This document shows positions 38,751 to 54,894 of a stretch of DNA of 64,000 nucleotides, in pieces; the stretch's first letter is position 1; each line of letters opens with the position of its first letter. The translations under genes and the position numbers were made by a program. The stretch is from Chloroflexota bacterium. Its GTDB lineage: Bacteria > Chloroflexota > Anaerolineae > Aggregatilineales > Phototrophicaceae. Below the pieces are notes generated by a model. That model had not been told where the DNA came from and ran no database searches. It worked only from the letters and a program-made list of their open reading frames with translations. The stretch lies in the NCBI GenBank assembly GCA_028873975.1, contig JAPPMO010000037.1, forward strand, positions 22,367 through 86,366. Reading direction: 5' to 3'.

Positions 38751-39041
38751 TTAATCCCTTGGTCGATGCCGGTTTTGAAGTTCCAGCTCTATATCCTGGA
38801 GGGAAAGGTCCAGTTCCGCCATCAAGACCAATACGTGGTAGAACAGGTCCGCCAGTTCGCTCACTTGTTCTTGCCGGCCTTGTTCTAAAGCGGCGATGAT
38901 GGTCTCCACCGCCTCTTCGCCCACTTTCTGCGCGATCTTGCCGCGACCTTCGTCGAAAAGGCGATTTGTATAGCTTCCCTCGGCTGGATTCAGCTTGCGA
39001 TCGCGGATGATCGCTTCCAACTGCTTGAGCATCTCGCTCAT
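38751..39041 (-). CDS. hisE: Phosphoribosyl-ATP pyrophosphohydrolase
   Basis: Hydrolyses PR-ATP to PR-AMP, histidine step 2. 96 residues, standard for a separate HisE. Motifs: YTNRLFDEGRGKIAQKVGEEAVETIIAAL, cited as KIAQKVGEEAVETIIAA, carries the metal-binding ExxE of the MazG-like fold, and SELADLFYHVLVLMAE the second acidic pair. Last gene of the his operon, 14 bases after hisI. Confidence 0.95.
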   Translation of the reverse strand: MSEMLKQLEAIIRDRKLNPAEGSYTNRLFDEGRGKIAQKVGEEAVETIIAALEQGRQEQVSELADLFYHVLVLMAELDLSLQDIELELQNRHRPRD

Positions 39042-39055
39042 CGTCCTGTCCCCGT

Positions 39056-39415
39056 CTAATATCGCTGCGGCTCGTGAATGAACTGATCAAAACTGCGGTA
39101 GAAACAACTGCGGGCTCCGGTGTGGCAGGCGGGTCCGGCGGGTTTAACCAGGATCAGAAGCGTGTCGGCATCGCAATCGATGCGTATATCAACCACCTGT
39201 TGCGTATTGCTGGAGGTCTCCCCTTTTTGCCACAGGGTCCGGCGGCTGCGGCTCCAAAAGGTCGTCTTCCCGGTATCCAGCGTGGCTTGCAAAGATTGCG
39301 CGTTCATGTAGGCCATCATCAAAACTTCGAGCGTCGACGCGTCTTGCACGATCGCCGGTATCAATCCTCGCTCGTTCCATTGAATCGCTTCCAGAACCCC
39401 GCTTTCAAGAGGCAT
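39056..39415 (-). CDS. hisI: Phosphoribosyl-AMP cyclohydrolase
   Basis: Opens the adenine ring of PR-AMP, histidine step 3. 119 residues. ATG 39415 follows GGGAGGAA and lies inside hisF, overlapping its 3' end by 11 bases. Family motifs: [38 protein letters not shown], and the Zn/Mg site [21 protein letters not shown] with the conserved Cys and Asp residues. HisI and HisE are separate here, not fused. Confidence 0.95.
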
Positions 39416-40190
39416 CGGATTCCTCCCAGCCGGACAGCCGAATCGGCAGGCCCTTGTCGTTCAAATACTGCTTTAGCTCGGCGATGCGCATTTCATTGAA
39501 GTGAAATAGCGTCGCCGCCAAAGCCGCGTCCGCGCCGCCTTCTTCCAGCGCTGCGCGGAAATGCTCTTTCCTGCCGGCGCCACCGGACGCGATCACCGGG
39601 ATGGATACCGCCTCCGCTACCGCTTGTGTCATCTCAATATCATATCCGGATTTGGTTCCGTCCTTATCCATACTCGTCAGCAGTATCTCTCCAGCGCCGC
39701 GATCCTCGACCTCTTTCGCCCAGGGAACTGCTTCCTTGTCGGTCGGGATGCGGCCTCCGTTGATGTGAACGAGCCATTTGCCGTCAACTCTGCGGGGGTC
39801 GATCGCCACGACGATGCATTGGCTGCCAAAACCCCAGGCGCCCGATGAGATCAATTCCGGGCTTCGGACAGCGGCGCTATTGATCGAGACTTTGTCGGCG
39901 CCTGCCAACAGAGTCTCGCGTATATCGTCGATGCTGCGAATGCCTCCTCCGACGCAAAAGGGAATGAAGATGCTATCCGCCACTTGTTTGACCATTTCCA
40001 GCCTGGTCTTGCGCGCCTCGTGCGATGCGGTGATATCAAGGAAAACCAACTCGTCAGCGCCTTCTCGATCATAAACGATCGCCTGCTCGACCGGGTCGCC
40101 GGCGTCGCGCAGGTCAATGAAATTGACGCCTTTGACAACGCGCCCGTCCTTCACATCCAGACAAGGTATGATTCGCTTCGCCAACATCAT
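39405..40190 (-). CDS. hisF: Imidazole glycerol phosphate synthase, cyclase subunit
   Basis: Cyclase half of IGP synthase, using ammonia from HisH. 261 residues, (beta/alpha)8 barrel. Catalytic aspartates in [16 protein letters not shown] and [13 protein letters not shown]; phosphate loops [10 protein letters not shown] and [11 protein letters not shown] 40190 follows AAAGGGG at about six bases and overlaps the hisA stop (ATGATG over TGA). Its 3' end overlaps hisI. Intact. Confidence 0.96.
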
Positions 40191-40912
40191 TCAGCCCCTT
40201 TCGCTGCTCGCAGGGCAGCGCACAGCGAGATCTTTTTCTGGTACAGCGCCATGCCGATAATCGCGCCCGCGACGACGCCGCTTGACGCGAGCCGCTTTAT
40301 TTCTCCCGCGCTGCTGACGCCGCCCGACGCGATCACCCGCAGCCCGGTTTCCCGCGCCAAGGCGACCGTATCGTCAATGTTCGCGCCACTTAACATGCCG
40401 TCTCGTTTGACATCGGTATACAGCGCATGCCTGAGGCCCTTTGCATATAACCAACTGCCAAATTCAACCGGCGACTCCGTCGACAATGCCGTCCAGCCAT
40501 GTGTCGTCACCTTGCCGTCTCTTGCATCGAGGGCGACGCAAATAGCGTCGGCGCCAAAGCGCGCTACCGCTTCGACGACCTTGTCAGGCTGCCTGACCGC
40601 CAGCGTTCCCAGGACGACTCGAGCAGCGCCCGCGTCAAGCGCTCCGCCCAGGGCTTTTAAATCGCGCAAGCCGCCGCCAAACTGCAGCTTGACATCAAGC
40701 TTGGCAACGGTTTCCAAGACCCTTATGTTCTCATTGGCCGCGTCAAATGCGCCATCCAAATTGACCATGTGTATCCATTCCGCTCCCTGGTCAATCCAGG
40801 ATTGCGCTGTCGCGGCCGGATCTTCGCTAAAGATCGTTTCTTGACTCAAATCTCCTTCGCGCAGTCGAACGACCTTGCCGTCATGAAGGTCAATTGCCGG
40901 GTAGATTATCAT
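40187..40912 (-). CDS. hisA: ProFAR isomerase
   Basis: Amadori isomerisation of 5'-ProFAR, histidine step 4. 241 residues; barrel homologous to HisF, with catalytic Asp in [15 protein letters not shown] and the second in [13 protein letters not shown]; phosphate loops LQFGGGLRD and [12 protein letters not shown] 40912 has AGGAG seven bases upstream. It follows hisH after an 87-base gap that contains a family B repeat. Confidence 0.95.
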
Positions 40913-40933: not shown

Positions 40934-41016
40934 AACCGCGTCGCCCACGCGGCGAGACGATTTGCTATTTTGCGCAAGCGCGACAGACCTTTTCGCCGGT
41001 TACGCGCCGAGCGGCT
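40934..41016 (-). repeat. Family B 3'-end repeat, copy 4, containing the hisH stop codon
   Basis: On the minus strand AGCCGCTCGGCGCGTAACCG supplies the last codons of hisH (Glu-Pro-Leu-Gly-Ala) and its TAA at 41002-41000. It then continues GCGAAAAGGTCTGTCGCGC and CAAAATAGCAAATCG into the hisH-hisA gap. Because it lies inside an operon, it cannot be a strong terminator here. Confidence 0.65.
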
Positions 41017-41623
41017 CAATTCTCAGAAAATTGTTCAATATCCGCAAGCCATTGACTTGACTTTTCTCGGGATGAAACTGCACGCCATATATGTTGCCGG
41101 ATTGCACAGCCGCGGCGAATTCAAGGCCGTAATCAACCGCGGCAATGATCGCGCTCGGGTCCTGCGGGGCGCAAAAGTAGCTGTGCACAAAGTAGACATG
41201 GCTGCCTTCGTCCAGCTTGTGAAACAGCCCCGAGCGGCCTTTCAAATCAAGCTGGTTCCAACCCATGTGCGGCACCTTGCGATCGGGAAAAGCTGGAAAG
41301 CGTCGCACCCGACCCGGTATGATCCCCAAGCCCTCGTGTTTCCCCATCTCTTCGCCTACATCAAAAAGCATTTGCATGCCGACGCAGATGCCGAGATAAG
41401 GAATGCCGGCGGCAAGCGCATCCAGCAAGGGCGCAACCAGATCGCGCCGGCGCATCTGCTCCATGCCCGCTCCAAAGGCGCCCACGCCCGGCAAGATGAT
41501 CTTGGACGCGCCGTCCAATTCCGAACCATGCTGTACCAGCCGCAGATTATGCGCCTGGAGATGCTTAAGCGCGTGCAATACGCTCCTCAGATTGCCCGCT
41601 CCATAATCGATAACTGCCAGCAT
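41000..41623 (-). CDS. hisH: Imidazole glycerol phosphate synthase, glutamine amidotransferase subunit
   Basis: Class I glutaminase feeding ammonia to HisF. 207 residues. Motifs: VIDYGAGNLRSVLHAL, ILPGVGAFGAGM, nucleophile cysteine in YLGICVGMQMLFD, and the His-Glu pair in GVQFHPEKSQVNG. ATG 41623 follows GGGAG at six bases. First structural gene after the his attenuator. The last five residues are encoded by a family B repeat rather than by conserved sequence, so the C-terminus may have been replaced when the repeat inserted. Confidence 0.95.
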   Translation of the reverse strand: MLAVIDYGAGNLRSVLHALKHLQAHNLRLVQHGSELDGASKIILPGVGAFGAGMEQMRRRDLVAPLLDALAAGIPYLGICVGMQMLFDVGEEMGKHEGLGIIPGRVRRFPAFPDRKVPHMGWNQLDLKGRSGLFHKLDEGSHVYFVHSYFCAPQDPSAIIAAVDYGLEFAAAVQSGNIYGVQFHPEKSQVNGLRILNNFLRIEPLGA

Positions 41624-41640
41624 CCCTATCTCCCAATTTC

Positions 41641-41670
41641 AAAGAAAAAGCCCCGCAAAGGAGCGAGGCC
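41641..41670 (-). terminator. Intrinsic terminator of the his attenuator
   Basis: On the minus strand GCCTCGC (41669-41663) and GCGGGGC (41656-41650) form a seven-pair stem (one G-U) around TCCTTT, followed by five T and then CTTT. It lies 30 bases after the leader stop and about 20 bases before hisH. A terminator at this place only makes sense as a conditional one. Confidence 0.85.
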
Positions 41671-41719
41671 TCAGTGACAGACTAAATGGCGTGAAGCACT
41701 ACGAGTCCTGGGCCGCTCC
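41660..41719 (-). promoter_or_regulatory. Antiterminator pairing of the his attenuator
   Basis: GGAGCG within leader codons Gly-Ala (41719-41714) is complementary to CGCTCC (41665-41660), which includes the 3' part of the terminator's first arm and its loop. The GGAGCG starts 15 bases after the fourth His codon. A ribosome stalled on His leaves it free, while one at the stop codon covers it. Further GGCC/GGCC pairing could extend the helix. Judged by eye, no energies computed. Confidence 0.6.
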
Positions 41720-41776
41720 TGTTCCGGATGGCAAATGATGATGATGGGAAATTGATTTCTTCACGATCATGTCCAT
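41699..41776 (-). CDS. his operon leader peptide
   Basis: A 25-residue frame MDMIVKKSIS-HHHH-LPSGTGAAQDS with four consecutive CAT codons. It starts at ATG 41776 (an in-frame ATG two codons on is possible) and stops at TAG 41699-41701. A weak AGAG precedes it. It lies between a consensus promoter and an intrinsic terminator, upstream of hisHAFIE. This is the expected form of a histidine-sensing leader, comparable in kind to enteric HisL with its run of His codons. Confidence 0.88.
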   Translation of the reverse strand: MDMIVKKSISHHHHLPSGTGAAQDS

Positions 41777-41792
41777 TCGACTCTAGCGCTGG

Positions 41793-41821
41793 ATTATATG
41801 GGGCGCGGTTGATGTTGTCAA
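41793..41821 (-). promoter_or_regulatory. Consensus sigma-70 promoter of the his operon
   Basis: On the minus strand TTGACA (41821-41816), exactly 17 bases, TATAAT (41798-41793): a perfect match in both hexamers. Initiation near 41786 would put the leader ATG only about 10 bases into the transcript. A strong promoter followed by an attenuator is the usual biosynthetic arrangement. Confidence 0.9.
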
Positions 41822-41887
41822 TGAAGAACAACTGGAAATCTTTGGAGTGTTGAATATTGTGGATATGCCAACATCCCAAAGCTATGT

Positions 41888-41980
41888 GGGGGCGACTCGC
41901 TGAGTCACCCAAAACATACTCCTCTTCGCCAGCCAACAAAGAAAAATCTTCGCGCTCTTTGTGCCTTTGTGGTGAAAACC
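41888..41980. repeat. REP-like palindrome and CACAAAG-type repeat
   Basis: GGGCGACTC-GCT-GAGTCACCC (41888-41910) is an imperfect palindrome of the same kind as that at 49053-49075. It is followed by AGAAAAATCTTCGCGCTCTT and TGTGCCTTTGTGGTGAAAAC (41939-41980), the reverse complement of the TTCACCACAAAGACACAAAG repeat at 51705. Confidence 0.6.
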
Positions 41981-42046
41981 TTTACCATCCCCCGTCAAAT
42001 CCAAGCCCAGCAATACCGCGCGGCCAGAGACCGGAATCGCCAACGA

Positions 42047-42075
42047 TTGTCCATAACCGTTGCGAATGCTATAAT
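42047..42075 (+). promoter_or_regulatory. Promoter of the coiled-coil/selB unit
   Basis: TTGTCC (42047-42052), a 17-base spacer and consensus TATAAT (42070-42075), about 50 bases before ATG 42125. Confidence 0.65.
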
Positions 42076-42124
42076 CAAAGCACACCGTCATTCCGCCAGT
42101 CAATTTGACGGGGGAGCAGGCAGG

Positions 42125-43360
42125 ATGCAAATCAATCAAATCGCCAGCATGATCGAGTGGTTGGATGAAGAGCGCCGGCGCGATAAAGCCATTATCGCGG
42201 CGCTGGAAGAGCGCGTCGCGCAGCAAGTCGAGCTTGTCGGTCAGATGCAACGGCGTGTCCAGAGCGTCGAGTCGGACCAAAGCGTCATCAAGCAGGAAAC
42301 GCTGCCCGCCCAAAAAGAACATGACATCATCGATAAACTGCGGCTGGAAATGGCCCAAATGCTGGAAAATGCCGAAGCGCGGCGCCTGACCGCGGAACGC
42401 GAAGCCGAACGCCGCGTCGATTTGCAGCGGGACGCAGTGCAGCGCAGCGTTCGCGATCTCGGTGAGAAAACGGACCGTATCGAAAAGCAGTTGGCCAATA
42501 TCAGCGGACTGCAAAGCGAGGGCGATCGGCTGACAAACGCGATGCGCGTGCTGAACCAGGAAATGGACGATCTGACCAAGAAGCTCGAAGGGCCGGATCG
42601 CCGCCTCACCTTCCTCGAAGAACAGCGGCGCACCGACGCGCGGCGTCTGGCGGAGATCGAAACTGAACTGCCGGAGTACAGGAAATCGGTTGATGGCATC
42701 GCCCCGAAACTGGGCTTAATAGAAGACTTGGCTGTGCGTAACGAACGCCGTATCCAGGACTACAACAGCGTCGACCGGGAACGTAGAGAACAGTTGCAGC
42801 AATTCATCGACCAGCAACAATTGATGACGCAGCAGCGCGACCAGCAAATGGCAGATCTCACCAAGCGCTTTAGCGTGCATGATGCCGAATTGCAGAAAAA
42901 CATCGAACGCTTCGAGATCTGGGCCCAAGCCTACCGGGAGATGAAACGCATCATCGACGATTTCAACCGCATCGGCGACCGGCTGGAACGGCGCATCAAC
43001 GAAGTTGCGGAAATGCAGCGGCTTAGCGAAGAGCGCTTTCGTCAGGAATGGAACGACTGGCGCGACGAGGATCAAAAGCGCTGGAAACAACTAACCCTGT
43101 CCAGCGATGAGGTCTGGCGCAATCACGACCGGGAGTTCGACAGCTTCGTGCATCGGGTCGCTGACATTGAAGTGCTGATCCCCGATGTGCGCGCGAATAT
43201 CGAACGGCTTTGGCAGTTGGAACGCGCCCGCGCCGAATTGTATCGCGAGCGCTACCAAGCCTTGCTCCACGAATACGACAGCAGCGCGTTCAGCGAAGAG
43301 ACCGGCAGCATGCAAAGCGGAGAAAGCCTCCTGGACAGCAGCGCGGTCGGCGGCGGATAA
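42125..43360 (+). CDS. Long coiled-coil protein upstream of selB
   Basis: 411 residues from ATG 42125 (GGGGGAGCAGG upstream). The longer frame from 41969 crosses the promoter and is rejected. Almost the whole chain is charged heptad-type helix rich in Glu, Arg, Gln and Leu (EWLDEERRRDKAIIAALEER; QLQQFIDQQQLMTQQRDQQM), with a less regular tail YDSSAFSEETGSMQSGESLL. No signal peptide, membrane helix or ATPase motifs, so it is not an SMC protein. It ends three bases before selB and shares its promoter. I do not recognise the family. Role unknown; a scaffold or a partner of SelB are guesses. Confidence 0.78.
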   Translation: MQINQIASMIEWLDEERRRDKAIIAALEERVAQQVELVGQMQRRVQSVESDQSVIKQETLPAQKEHDIIDKLRLEMAQMLENAEARRLTAEREAERRVDLQRDAVQRSVRDLGEKTDRIEKQLANISGLQSEGDRLTNAMRVLNQEMDDLTKKLEGPDRRLTFLEEQRRTDARRLAEIETELPEYRKSVDGIAPKLGLIEDLAVRNERRIQDYNSVDRERREQLQQFIDQQQLMTQQRDQQMADLTKRFSVHDAELQKNIERFEIWAQAYREMKRIIDDFNRIGDRLERRINEVAEMQRLSEERFRQEWNDWRDEDQKRWKQLTLSSDEVWRNHDREFDSFVHRVADIEVLIPDVRANIERLWQLERARAELYRERYQALLHEYDSSAFSEETGSMQSGESLLDSSAVGGG

Positions 43361-51928: not shown

Positions 51929-51975
51929 ATCAAGGAACTCAGGTGCCGCAGGACTTAACATTCGAATATCATAAA

Positions 51976-52220
51976 ACGATGATCGGGAGGAGTAGACAAG
52001 CTCACTCGTAATCAGAGACGCGGGTCATAGTCTGGGAGCCCGCCTGCGAAACCTTGTCGAAAGTCGCCCGGGAGTTGCCCGAAAGAACGCAACCGCCAGT
52101 AGATTCGGGACGGTTCACGCCCGTTATCGCGTCTCGAGCGCAGCGGAGTTTTCTCCGCTGAAACAAGGTGGTACCGCGAAGCTTAGCCTTTCGTCCTTGT
52201 ATAGGACGGGAGGCTTTTTT
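51976..52220 (+). promoter_or_regulatory. T-box riboswitch of valS, specifier GUC
   Basis: Stem I has AGTA (51991-51994) opposite GAAA (52059-52062), a loop-E-like pair, with helix GACAAG/CTTGTC (51995-52000 and 52053-52058) above. Directly after GAAA comes GTC (52063-52065), the valine specifier, then CCC pairing with GGG below. The distal part contains AGAGA and CGGG/CCCG. The T-box sequence AAGGTGGTACCGCG is at 52165-52178. The terminator is a twelve-pair stem 52185-52196 with 52204-52215, followed by TTTTT. Uncharged tRNA-Val would stabilise the antiterminator and switch valS on. Confidence 0.93.
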
Positions 52221-52248
52221 GATCTCTTTTGTGAGGAGGACAGGAGCC

Positions 52249-54894
52249 ATGAGAGCGAGCGCCGAAAGCAATATGCCGCGCAACTTCGACTATGCCGATG
52301 CCGAGCCGCGGCTGTATGCCTGGTGGGAGCGCAAGGGCTGGTTCAAACCCGAGGTCGCCGGATCGAATGCCGAGCCTTTCGTCGTCAGCATGCCGCCGCC
52401 CAATGTCACGGGCAGCCTGCATCTGGGGCACGCGCTTTTCGGCGCGCTGGAAGACTTGATGGTTCGTTACGAGCGCATGCGCGGCAAAGCGGCGCTTTGG
52501 CTGCCGGGGACCGATCACGCCGGCATCGCAACGCAGCTGCAAGTCGAGAACATGCTGCGCGAAGAAGGCAGCAGCCGCGAGGAAGTTGGCTATGAAGAAT
52601 TCTTGCACCGGACCTGGCAATGGAAAGAAGAACACGGCGGGACAATCACGCGACAATTGCGCCGGCTGGGCGCCAGCTGCGACTGGGATCGGGAACGCTT
52701 CACGCTGGACGACGGATTGTCGACAGCGGTCACGCAAGCATTTTTGACCTTGTGGGAACAGGGATTGATCTACCGCGGACCGCGCCTGGTCAACTGGAGC
52801 CCGGGTTTGCAGACAGCCGTTTCCGACCTGGAAGTCGAAAGCACAGAAGAAGAAGCGACGCTCTATTATTTCAAGTACCCGCTTGGCGATGGCGGACACA
52901 TACCGGTGGCGACAACCCGCCCCGAAACCATCCTGGGCGATACGGCGCTTGCGGTCAACCCCGCTGACGCGCGTTACGCGGGTTCCATCGGCAAGAGCGC
53001 TTTTGTGCCGATCTTGAGGCGGGAGATCCCGGTCATCGGCGATGACAGTGTGGACATGGCATTTGGTACGGGCGCTCTTAAAGTCACGCCCGCCCATGAC
53101 TTCAACGACTATGAGATTGGTCAGCGGCACAAGCTCGCGCTGGTTAATGTACTCAACAAAGATGCCAGCATGAATGCAAATGCCGGCAAGTACGCGGGCA
53201 TGGATCGCTATGACTGTCGCGACCGCCTGTGGCGCGATATGGAAGCGGCGGGCTTGGCCATAAAGACCGAAGCATATACCACGCGCATTCCGCGCAGCCA
53301 GCGTGGTGGAGAAGTCGTGGAGCCGATGATGAGCACGCAGTGGTACGTTCGCATCCAGCCCCTGGCGGAAAAGGCGATGGCAGCCGTTCGCCGGGGCGAT
53401 ATCAAAATCGTGCCGGAACGATACGAAAAGGTATATTTTCATTGGCTGGAGAACATTCAGGACTGGTGCATCAGCCGGCAATTGTGGTGGGGACATCGCA
53501 TACCCGCCTGGTATCGCGACAAAGACGGCGACCCGGAGGGTGAAATCCACGTCGGGCGCAACCCGCCGTTGGGCGGGGGCTGGGTGATGGAAGAAGATGT
53601 CCTGGATACCTGGTTCAGCAGCGGGCTATGGCCATTCAGCACCTTGGGCTGGCCGAGCGAGAGCGGGGATCTCGAGCGCTACTACCCGACGCAAGTCATG
53701 GAGACTGGTCACGACATCCTGTTTTTCTGGGTGGCGCGCATGATCATGATGGGCTTGTGGTTCACCGACAAGCCGCCTTTCCACACCGTCTATCTTCATG
53801 GCCTGGTTCGCGACAGGCATGGCAAGAAGTTCAGCAAGTCCCTGGGCAACGTCATTGATCCGCTGACCATTGTCGACAAGCTGGGGGCGGATCCCTTGCG
53901 CTTCACGCTTATCACCAGCGGCACGCCGGGCAACGATGTCAATCTGGACGAAAGACGCGTCGACCATACCTTCCGTTTCATCAACAAAGTCTGGCAAATC
54001 ACCTCATTTATCAACATGAACCTGGAAGGCGATCTCGAGCTGGGTCTGCCCCCAGTCGAAGAACTCGATCTGCCTGCGCGCTGGATACTCAGCAGATTGC
54101 ATCGCCTGATCGCCAACGTGCAGCACTTGTTCGACATTTATCAATTCGGCGAAGCCGGCAGCCAGATTCTCGCCTTCATGTGGGACGAATTCGCGCCTTA
54201 CTACCTGGAAATCAGCAAACATTTCATGTATTCAGGTACGGAAGACGAGAAGATTGCGACACAGCGCGTTCTGGTAGCGGTGCAAGACAGCTGTTTGCGC
54301 ATGCTGCATCCTTTCATGCCATTTATGACGGAAGAAGCCTGGCGCTACATCCCGCACGATGGCGAAGCGCTCATCATTGCCGATTGGCCCAATGCGAATA
54401 CGACGCTCATCGACGACGAGATCGAGGCTCGCATGAATCTCTTGCTCGAGTTGGTTCGAGAGCTGCGCAATACCCGCGGCGAATACAAGGTCGATCCCGG
54501 CAAGCGCATCAAAGCCCTGGCAAAGGCCGGCGCCGCCGCGAAAGATATGGCGGCGCATGACTACGTCTTCAGACGGCTATGCAACGTGGAAGAACTGCAA
54601 CTGCTGGCCGCGGAGGATCCGACGCCGACTAATGCCGCCAGTATCGTCGTCAGCGATGTCACGCTCTACCTGCCGCTGGAAGGCATGCTCGATATCGAGG
54701 CGGAAAGGGGGCGTCTGGAGGGCGAAGCAAGCCGTTTGACCCAGCAGATCGCCAAAACGCAGAAGATGCTAGGCAACGACAATTTCCTGAGCAAGGCGCC
54801 GGAAGCGGTCGTTCAGCGGGAACGCGACCGGCTGGCTGATCTGGAATCGGCACATAAACAAGTGACAGAGCGCTTGTCCAGCCTGCCGCGATAG
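52249..54894 (+). CDS. valS: Valyl-tRNA synthetase
   Basis: 881 residues from ATG 52249 (AGGAGG and AGGAG upstream); ATG 52273 is a shorter option. Class I synthetase: HIGH motif as PPPNVTGSLHLGHALFGAL, editing CP1 domain (VATTRPETILGDTALAVNP), KMSKS motif as HGKKFSKSLGNVIDPL, anticodon-binding domain, and the C-terminal coiled-coil tRNA arm (GRLEGEASRLTQQIAKTQKM). Zinc-finger cysteines of some ValS are not evident. Regulated by the T-box immediately upstream. Confidence 0.97.
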   Translation: MRASAESNMPRNFDYADAEPRLYAWWERKGWFKPEVAGSNAEPFVVSMPPPNVTGSLHLGHALFGALEDLMVRYERMRGKAALWLPGTDHAGIATQLQVENMLREEGSSREEVGYEEFLHRTWQWKEEHGGTITRQLRRLGASCDWDRERFTLDDGLSTAVTQAFLTLWEQGLIYRGPRLVNWSPGLQTAVSDLEVESTEEEATLYYFKYPLGDGGHIPVATTRPETILGDTALAVNPADARYAGSIGKSAFVPILRREIPVIGDDSVDMAFGTGALKVTPAHDFNDYEIGQRHKLALVNVLNKDASMNANAGKYAGMDRYDCRDRLWRDMEAAGLAIKTEAYTTRIPRSQRGGEVVEPMMSTQWYVRIQPLAEKAMAAVRRGDIKIVPERYEKVYFHWLENIQDWCISRQLWWGHRIPAWYRDKDGDPEGEIHVGRNPPLGGGWVMEEDVLDTWFSSGLWPFSTLGWPSESGDLERYYPTQVMETGHDILFFWVARMIMMGLWFTDKPPFHTVYLHGLVRDRHGKKFSKSLGNVIDPLTIVDKLGADPLRFTLITSGTPGNDVNLDERRVDHTFRFINKVWQITSFINMNLEGDLELGLPPVEELDLPARWILSRLHRLIANVQHLFDIYQFGEAGSQILAFMWDEFAPYYLEISKHFMYSGTEDEKIATQRVLVAVQDSCLRMLHPFMPFMTEEAWRYIPHDGEALIIADWPNANTTLIDDEIEARMNLLLELVRELRNTRGEYKVDPGKRIKALAKAGAAAKDMAAHDYVFRRLCNVEELQLLAAEDPTPTNAASIVVSDVTLYLPLEGMLDIEAERGRLEGEASRLTQQIAKTQKMLGNDNFLSKAPEAVVQRERDRLADLESAHKQVTERLSSLPR

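Follow-up and report, generated by a model that had tools for sequence, protein, structure and literature searches.

A probable histidine leader-peptide attenuator upstream of hisH in a Chloroflexota bacterium, with patchy counterparts elsewhere in the class Anaerolineae

The window, as we call the whole 64,000-nt stretch of Chloroflexota DNA analysed here, contains a histidine operon beginning with hisH, and the short region upstream of that gene raises the question of how the operon is controlled. A preliminary description of the sequence read this region as an attenuator with a leader peptide, and the reading is supported, as far as sequence can support it, by conservation within the family and by compensatory pairing. 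We consider it highly likely that the region is a ribosome-mediated transcription attenuator controlling hisHAFIE by charged tRNA-His. The genes directly after the leader run in the order hisH-A-F-I-E (hisA to hisE spanning 38751..40912 on the minus strand), and their Pfam domains indicate an operon that makes histidine; we take the first gene to be hisH from its operon context and from known sequence features, beyond what its GATase domain says.

Table 1. Positions in the window of the features discussed in the text
Feature	Coordinates	Strand	Remarks
Promoter, TTGACA-17-TATAAT	41793..41821	-	12/12 consensus match
-35 box, TTGACA	41821-41816	-	17-nt spacer
-10 box, TATAAT	41798-41793	-	
Leader peptide frame (predicted), MDMIVKKSISHHHHLPSGTGAAQDS	41699..41776	-	contains HHHH; start probably GTG 41764, not ATG 41776
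Four His codons	41746-41735	-	within leader frame
Predicted antiterminator segment, GGAGCGGCC	41711..41719	-	starts 15 nt past last His codon, ends 9 nt before stop
GGAGCG	41719-41714	-	15 nt past last His codon
Leader stop, TAG	41701-41699	-	
Intrinsic terminator hairpin	41650..41669	-	7-pair core; 10 pairs with flanking bases
Terminator arms, GCCTCGC and GCGGGGC	41669-41663 and 41656-41650	-	loop TCCTTT between arms; TTTTT follows
U-tract	41645..41649	-	
hisH	41000..41623	-	first gene of the putatively regulated operon; Pfam GATase
hisA	40912-40187	-	Pfam His_biosynth
hisF	40190-39405	-	Pfam His_biosynth
hisI	39415-39056	-	Pfam PRA-CH
hisE	39041-38751	-	Pfam PRA-PH
Second candidate leader-peptide attenuator	15750-15547	-	TTGACA-17-TATTGT; peptide MQSNSATPALSLLILVIVLLIISGL, rich in Ile/Leu/Val
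Terminator of the ilvE leader	 	-	AGCCTCCCCAGCCACGGGAGGCT-TTTT
ilvE, ilvB, ilvN/H, ilvC, leuA	15427-9338	-	follow the Ile/Leu/Val leader; names by reading translations
T-box leader	51970-52201	+	RF00230, 119.7 bits

Read along the minus strand from 41821 to 41623, the elements follow one another as promoter, HHHH frame, terminator with U-tract, and hisH. The promoter had been called perfect, and all 12 of its box positions do match the consensus; judging from its position, transcription would start near 41786. Sites matching at least 9 of the 12 positions numbered four in the 3.5-kb region, as compared to an average of 1.7 in shuffles, and by eye, without a count, similar boxes can be made out at this place ahead of many of the family's hisH genes. 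The seven-pair terminator and U-tract described before hisH are likewise present, with a folding energy of -16.8 kcal/mol (z -4.4) that none of 200 shuffles equalled. The short frame with its HHHH run stands as well, but the length of 25 codons assigned to it does not. When the six closest genomes (L001-L006) were compared by eye, the ATG that gives 25 codons was absent from L004 and L005 and the GTG start was kept in all six, so the leader peptide probably has 21 codons. In shuffled upstream regions of the family (300 nt), at least three His in five codons of a short frame occurred in 1.4%. Four consecutive CAY codons were dropped as a lone marker because the window's genome (4.46 Mb in 119 contigs) holds 72 such sites.

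Relatives of the window were examined next to it. A hisH-like match was present in 94 of the 101 genomes searched, and the upstream regions compared came from 57 genomes in the window's family, 34 of which, counting the window's own, belong to its genus, and from 33 genomes of the order's other families. A strict rule called for a short frame with at least three His in five codons, a hairpin and a T tail; a relaxed rule accepted two His in five. The preliminary description had proposed such an alignment and held that relatives lacking the His run or the terminator would speak against attenuation; most relatives in the family have both: 43 of 57 genomes under the strict rule (27/34 in the window's genus, 16/23 in the rest of the family) and 51 of 57 under the relaxed one (31/34 and 20/23, respectively). 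In the order's other families, no His frame with a terminator was found before hisH in any of the 33 genomes under either rule; there, hisH often follows what we take to be hisB (by eye, from a motif). Among named hisH loci, 28 of 80 passed the strict rule, all within L031-L067. The nearest named hisH records are Chloroflexi/Anaerolineae MAGs with 94% identity at best, in agreement with the earlier assignment to a probable Chloroflexota genome. One named record, JAHHHY010000001.1 (L059), is titled Pleurocapsa minor, a cyanobacterium, and carries hisH with a His leader of the family's type; a genome placed in the window's family (G049) has its hisH match at the same place, and the record looks like a mislabelled MAG.

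Six of the 57 family genomes failed the relaxed rule, in different ways. L029 (G014) keeps the promoter-like boxes and the terminator but lacks the His codons, the antiterminator segment and the stop, all three of which its relatives L027 and L030 retain; it reads as a natural loss, as if deleted. L121 (G050) has no leader before hisH, the upstream region of L111 (G004) is masked, L116 lacks the T tail, and L005 and L132 have the frame with a tail of only five T. The His run itself is reduced to two adjacent codons in L007, L008, L018, L116, L123, L129 and L134, and L017 and L163 have no adjacent His codons. For the pairing analyses we began with 56 family rows, the masked L111 being left out, and dropped L029 (no frame), L116 and L136 (no hairpin at the T run) and the leaderless L121 (fold -3.4 kcal/mol). 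A hairpin thus stood at the T run in 52 of the 55 rows with a chosen frame, three of them (L030, L112 and L114) having the terminator arm set by pattern because the fold picked another hairpin. The duplex tests used these 52 rows, 32 from the window's genus and 20 from other genera.

The preliminary description held that GGAGCG can invade the terminator arm, and the calculated duplex bears this out: GGAGCGGCC pairs with GGCC..CGCTCC of the terminator 5' arm at -21.5 kcal/mol, a value reached by a fraction of 0.010 of shuffled segments. Because the register of the pairing shifts (GAGCG/CGCTC in the window's genus, CGGTG/CACCG in other genera), we set aside a fixed-column covariation count on an alignment of the leaders (A1; 50 of the 52 rows, with L008 and L163 left out) and relied on tests of own versus swapped duplexes, in which the segment after the His run was paired with the terminator 5' arm and loop of its own or of another species. 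Segments of other genera paired at -12.8 kcal/mol with their own arms as compared to -9.0 with arms of the window's genus (swaps as good: median 0%, mean 11%), and for the window's genus the segments gave -14.7 with own arms and -11.9 with those of other genera (median 10%, mean 22%). Swaps within a group gave less contrast, since relatives share sequence: little in the window's genus (-14.7 against -13.6), where a median of 40% of swaps were as good, and a moderate one among other genera (-12.8 against -11.3; 32%). Taken individually, 25 of the 52 duplexes beat shuffled segments at 0.05.

A second comparison used 47 leaders, within and beyond the family, that were hand-picked after the scan matches were known. 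Duplicates and near-duplicates were left out (for example L211 for L232, L410 for L248, L411 for L235, L033 for L009, and several of the window's genus); L001, L007 and L009 were taken from the genomes with hisH matches, L007 being admitted under the relaxed rule. In this hand-picked set, own pairing averaged -14.46 kcal/mol and swapped pairing -11.09 (sd 0.35), none of 20,000 permutations was as good, and the median share of swaps as good was 15% per leader. The advantage of own pairing held separately for the 22 non-hisH leaders (six of them named records) and for the 25 hisH leaders. When ten pairs of regions were tested on the 47 leaders, only two were strong: segment with arm (z -9.4) and the terminator stem (z -16.7), the latter being expected because leaders were chosen by their terminator. 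Control pairs gave z -2.1 (upstream region with segment), -2.4 (upstream with post-stop region) and -2.0 (post-stop region with 3' arm), and the remaining pairs -0.5 to 3.3. On these comparisons, the predicted antiterminator is maintained by compensatory change. A further pairing, in which the first part of the frame meets the post-stop region (CGTGAAG/CTTCACG in the window), was considered as a protector, the 1:2 hairpin by which such attenuators terminate when the leader is untranslated. It is convincing by eye and weakly supported by the tests, a median of 52% of swaps being as good in the window's genus and 6% in other genera, with 10 of 52 family duplexes beating shuffles at 0.05; we do not claim it.

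The distance of 15 nt from the last His codon to GGAGCG, remarked on at the outset as fitting ribosome stalling, is close to that in most relatives. In the 47 of 52 family leaders with a recognised pairing core (five had none), the core lies 16-31 nt past the last His codon, at 16-19 nt in 36 of the 47, and the distance from the end of the core to the end of the stop codon is 12-18 nt in 36 of the 47. Given the length of mRNA that a ribosome occupies, a ribosome at the stop codon would lie over the core, and one on the His codons would leave it exposed. Two of the 47 leaders (L125 and L126) have the core past the stop, ending 13 and 20 nt beyond it, and masking by a terminating ribosome, in its simple form, does not account for these.

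We propose the following order of events. Transcription would begin at about 41786, and a ribosome would translate the leader frame. With ample charged tRNA-His, the ribosome would reach the stop at 41701 and cover positions 41719-41711; with that segment covered, the terminator arm at 41670-41660 would be left unpaired by it, the terminator at 41669-41650 would form, and transcription would end. With tRNA-His uncharged, the ribosome would stall on the His codons, about 16 nt upstream of the segment, and the free segment would pair with the terminator 5' arm once made, allowing RNA polymerase to continue into hisH. Shortage of histidine would very probably be sensed by the stalled ribosome, as in E. 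coli. Folding of the leader RNA had been suggested earlier as a check: the whole leader folds better than most shuffles (z -2.0; 6 of 200 as good), and the free RNA favours the antiterminator, not the terminator, which suggests that termination depends on the ribosome.

Could the hairpin instead be a constitutive terminator that damps or ends transcription, with a chance His run in a short frame without a role? Such an arrangement might be read into the 72 genomic CAYx4 sites, and into L029, where the terminator persists and the His frame is lost. However, genera and families conserve the frame, its spacing and the segment-arm pairing together; none of the other 71 CAYx4 sites in the genome lies in a short frame with a terminator after it under the strict rule; and the long open frame upstream of the leader (41969-43360) is on the opposite strand and reads away from it. 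We regard a constitutive terminator as very unlikely.

It is scarcely credible that the leader responds to another signal, whether by acting as a T-box or metabolite riboswitch or by binding a protein, and that its His-rich peptide is incidental to this. A T-box does precede a valS-like gene in the same window, so tRNA-sensing RNAs are used in the lineage. At the his leader, however, covariance models gave no Rfam family at gathering score, and the four matches at E up to 10 were far below their cut-offs and none was an amino-acid leader; RF02631, an sRNA family, reached 21.2 bits against a cut-off of 52 (E 0.0039) over 41642-41710, and RF00230, the T-box, was unmatched over 41560-41860. The His codons, moreover, persist although much of the sequence around them varies, mean column identity in alignment A1 being 44%. 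We give hardly any probability to a peptide that acts in trans, perhaps as a small protein that binds metal or regulates, with the terminator a separate matter: trans-acting leader peptides do exist, such as peTrpL in the accessible part of PMC7298713, but the recurring peptide ends here (ARAMRGA, PVLV, REVY) differ by group and fall on the RNA pairing segment, the pattern to be expected from selection on the RNA, not on the peptide. The leader has, in its sequence, most of the features that define attenuators of this kind, namely a frame of product codons (its translation predicted), a terminator before the first gene, and an antiterminator exclusive with it; a protector hairpin is weakly supported. 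Very probably it functions as a His attenuator by the known mechanism, in the manner of the leader-peptide attenuators of his, trp and ilv operons.

The same leader design stands before hisG in other families of the class, an observation absent from the preliminary description. A strict scan of the hisG and hisD neighbourhoods in the order's other families, not every genome being scanned at both genes, found the architecture in 9 of 19 genomes, before hisG and once before hisD. The hits were 4/4 in family f2, 3/3 in f3, 1/2 in f4 (the one before hisD), 1/2 in f6 (the miss having just 400 nt of sequence), and 0/4 each in f7 and f8. The architecture also occurs in six named Chloroflexi/Anaerolineae records (L068, L069, L071, L080, L098 and L101), where it precedes hisH by about 4 kb. 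In the phylum as a whole, 151 of 201 genomes gave a hisG, and one upstream region was examined in 90 of them; the scan extended about 900-1500 nt upstream of the hisG domain, so that a leader before an earlier operon gene would be missed. Within the class but outside the order, a leader precedes hisG in 7 of 13 genomes, all from families f9 and f12; the strict rule found none in the 77 hisG upstream regions from other classes (Fisher 2.3e-7, with species not independent). One locus of another class (L326) passed the relaxed rule and is chance-like. The window's own genome has hisG, hisD and hisB on other contigs than hisH, and the strict scan found no His leader at hisG, at the two copies of hisD or at hisB (L205, L243, L262 and L261). 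Based on these scans, the predicted His leader is widespread but patchy in the class Anaerolineae. Chance hits do arise in the scan, as seen in a second, unrelated match in L033 (8081-8143). Four leaders not of the hisH type (L080, L098, L101 and L342) share CTTTAAG(G/A)A near the stop and a GC(G/A)CTTC terminator arm, and may form a separate subfamily.

How does the leader compare with known systems? As far as the available part of its description goes, the his attenuator of enterobacteria (RF00514) is alike in its run of His codons in a short frame, in the opposition of terminator and antiterminator, and in its place upstream of the his operon. The window leader differs from it in several respects: the design seems content with two competing hairpins, the antiterminator segment lies inside the frame, and the Chloroflexota leaders precede hisH or hisG in another phylum. 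The RF00514 covariance model was unmatched over the leader at gathering score or at E up to 10, and the leader falls outside that family. Features of the enterobacterial type are described in the accessible text of PMC9413887. The view that such attenuation is known mainly from Proteobacteria needs widening; it is published there, but the accessible parts of PMC9413887 and PMC2965389 also report His attenuators in Firmicutes. Candidates in the Bacillus cereus group, in Peptostreptococcaceae with Lutispora and in Erysipelotrichales, obtained by comparative genomics, have leader peptides with three to five consecutive His codons, a terminator and an antiterminator (PMC9413887, text as available); they belong to another phylum, and we liken them to the window leader by description. 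The hisZ/hisS* leader of bacilli, according to the accessible part of PMC2965389, likewise combines a short frame containing His codons with a premature terminator after it, and has different target genes. A T-box (RF00230) senses tRNA charging as well, but without a peptide.

PMC9413887, in the part available, names Chloroflexi nowhere but in its reference list. For leader peptides with His in Actinobacteria, the accessible text of PMC4833913 refers to a conference paper, and it places Chloroflexi among the groups with too few genomes for its test. That of PMC3766115, an RNA-motif survey with five Chloroflexi genomes among those covered, gives the His leader as RF00514 with 49 cases. As the preliminary description had supposed, no case of leader-peptide attenuation in Chloroflexota was recognised among the full-text matches listed; subscription papers lay outside that scope, and a 2010 survey by Lopatovskaya and colleagues could contain one. 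The leaders described here would extend amino-acid leader attenuation to a phylum for which no report was found, backed by several families of one class, and independent origin versus common descent of this mode of control becomes testable. They also offer a reading of histidine control for bacteria that are known chiefly through metagenomes, and they provide a minimal attenuator in dozens of natural variants.

The window contains a second candidate leader-peptide attenuator, rich in Ile, Leu and Val codons, upstream of an apparent ilvE. A like leader and terminator were present before ilvE in all 30 loci of the genus that were fetched, the window's own included, and each of the five leaders inspected has GGCTTGGG close to the stop, which can form pairs with CCCAAGCC or CCCCAGCC in the terminator arm. 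Taking both leaders together, we offer a broader picture that is tentative and less likely than not to hold: leader-peptide attenuation may be old and general in Anaerolineae, with one His design inherited through much of the class, staying with whichever gene leads the operon, passing from hisG to a place before hisH in the window's family and lost in some families. The switch would be a minimal one of two hairpins without a strong protector, ON by default when the leader is untranslated, unlike the textbook logic of trp, and a parallel Ile/Leu/Val leader would control ilvE-ilvBNC-leuA in the window's genus.

The T-box of the window lies just before an apparent gene for valine-tRNA ligase (open frame 52168-54894); the listed start falls within the T-box, and the true one is probably another. 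With this T-box and the leader peptides in one window, the lineage seems to use both.
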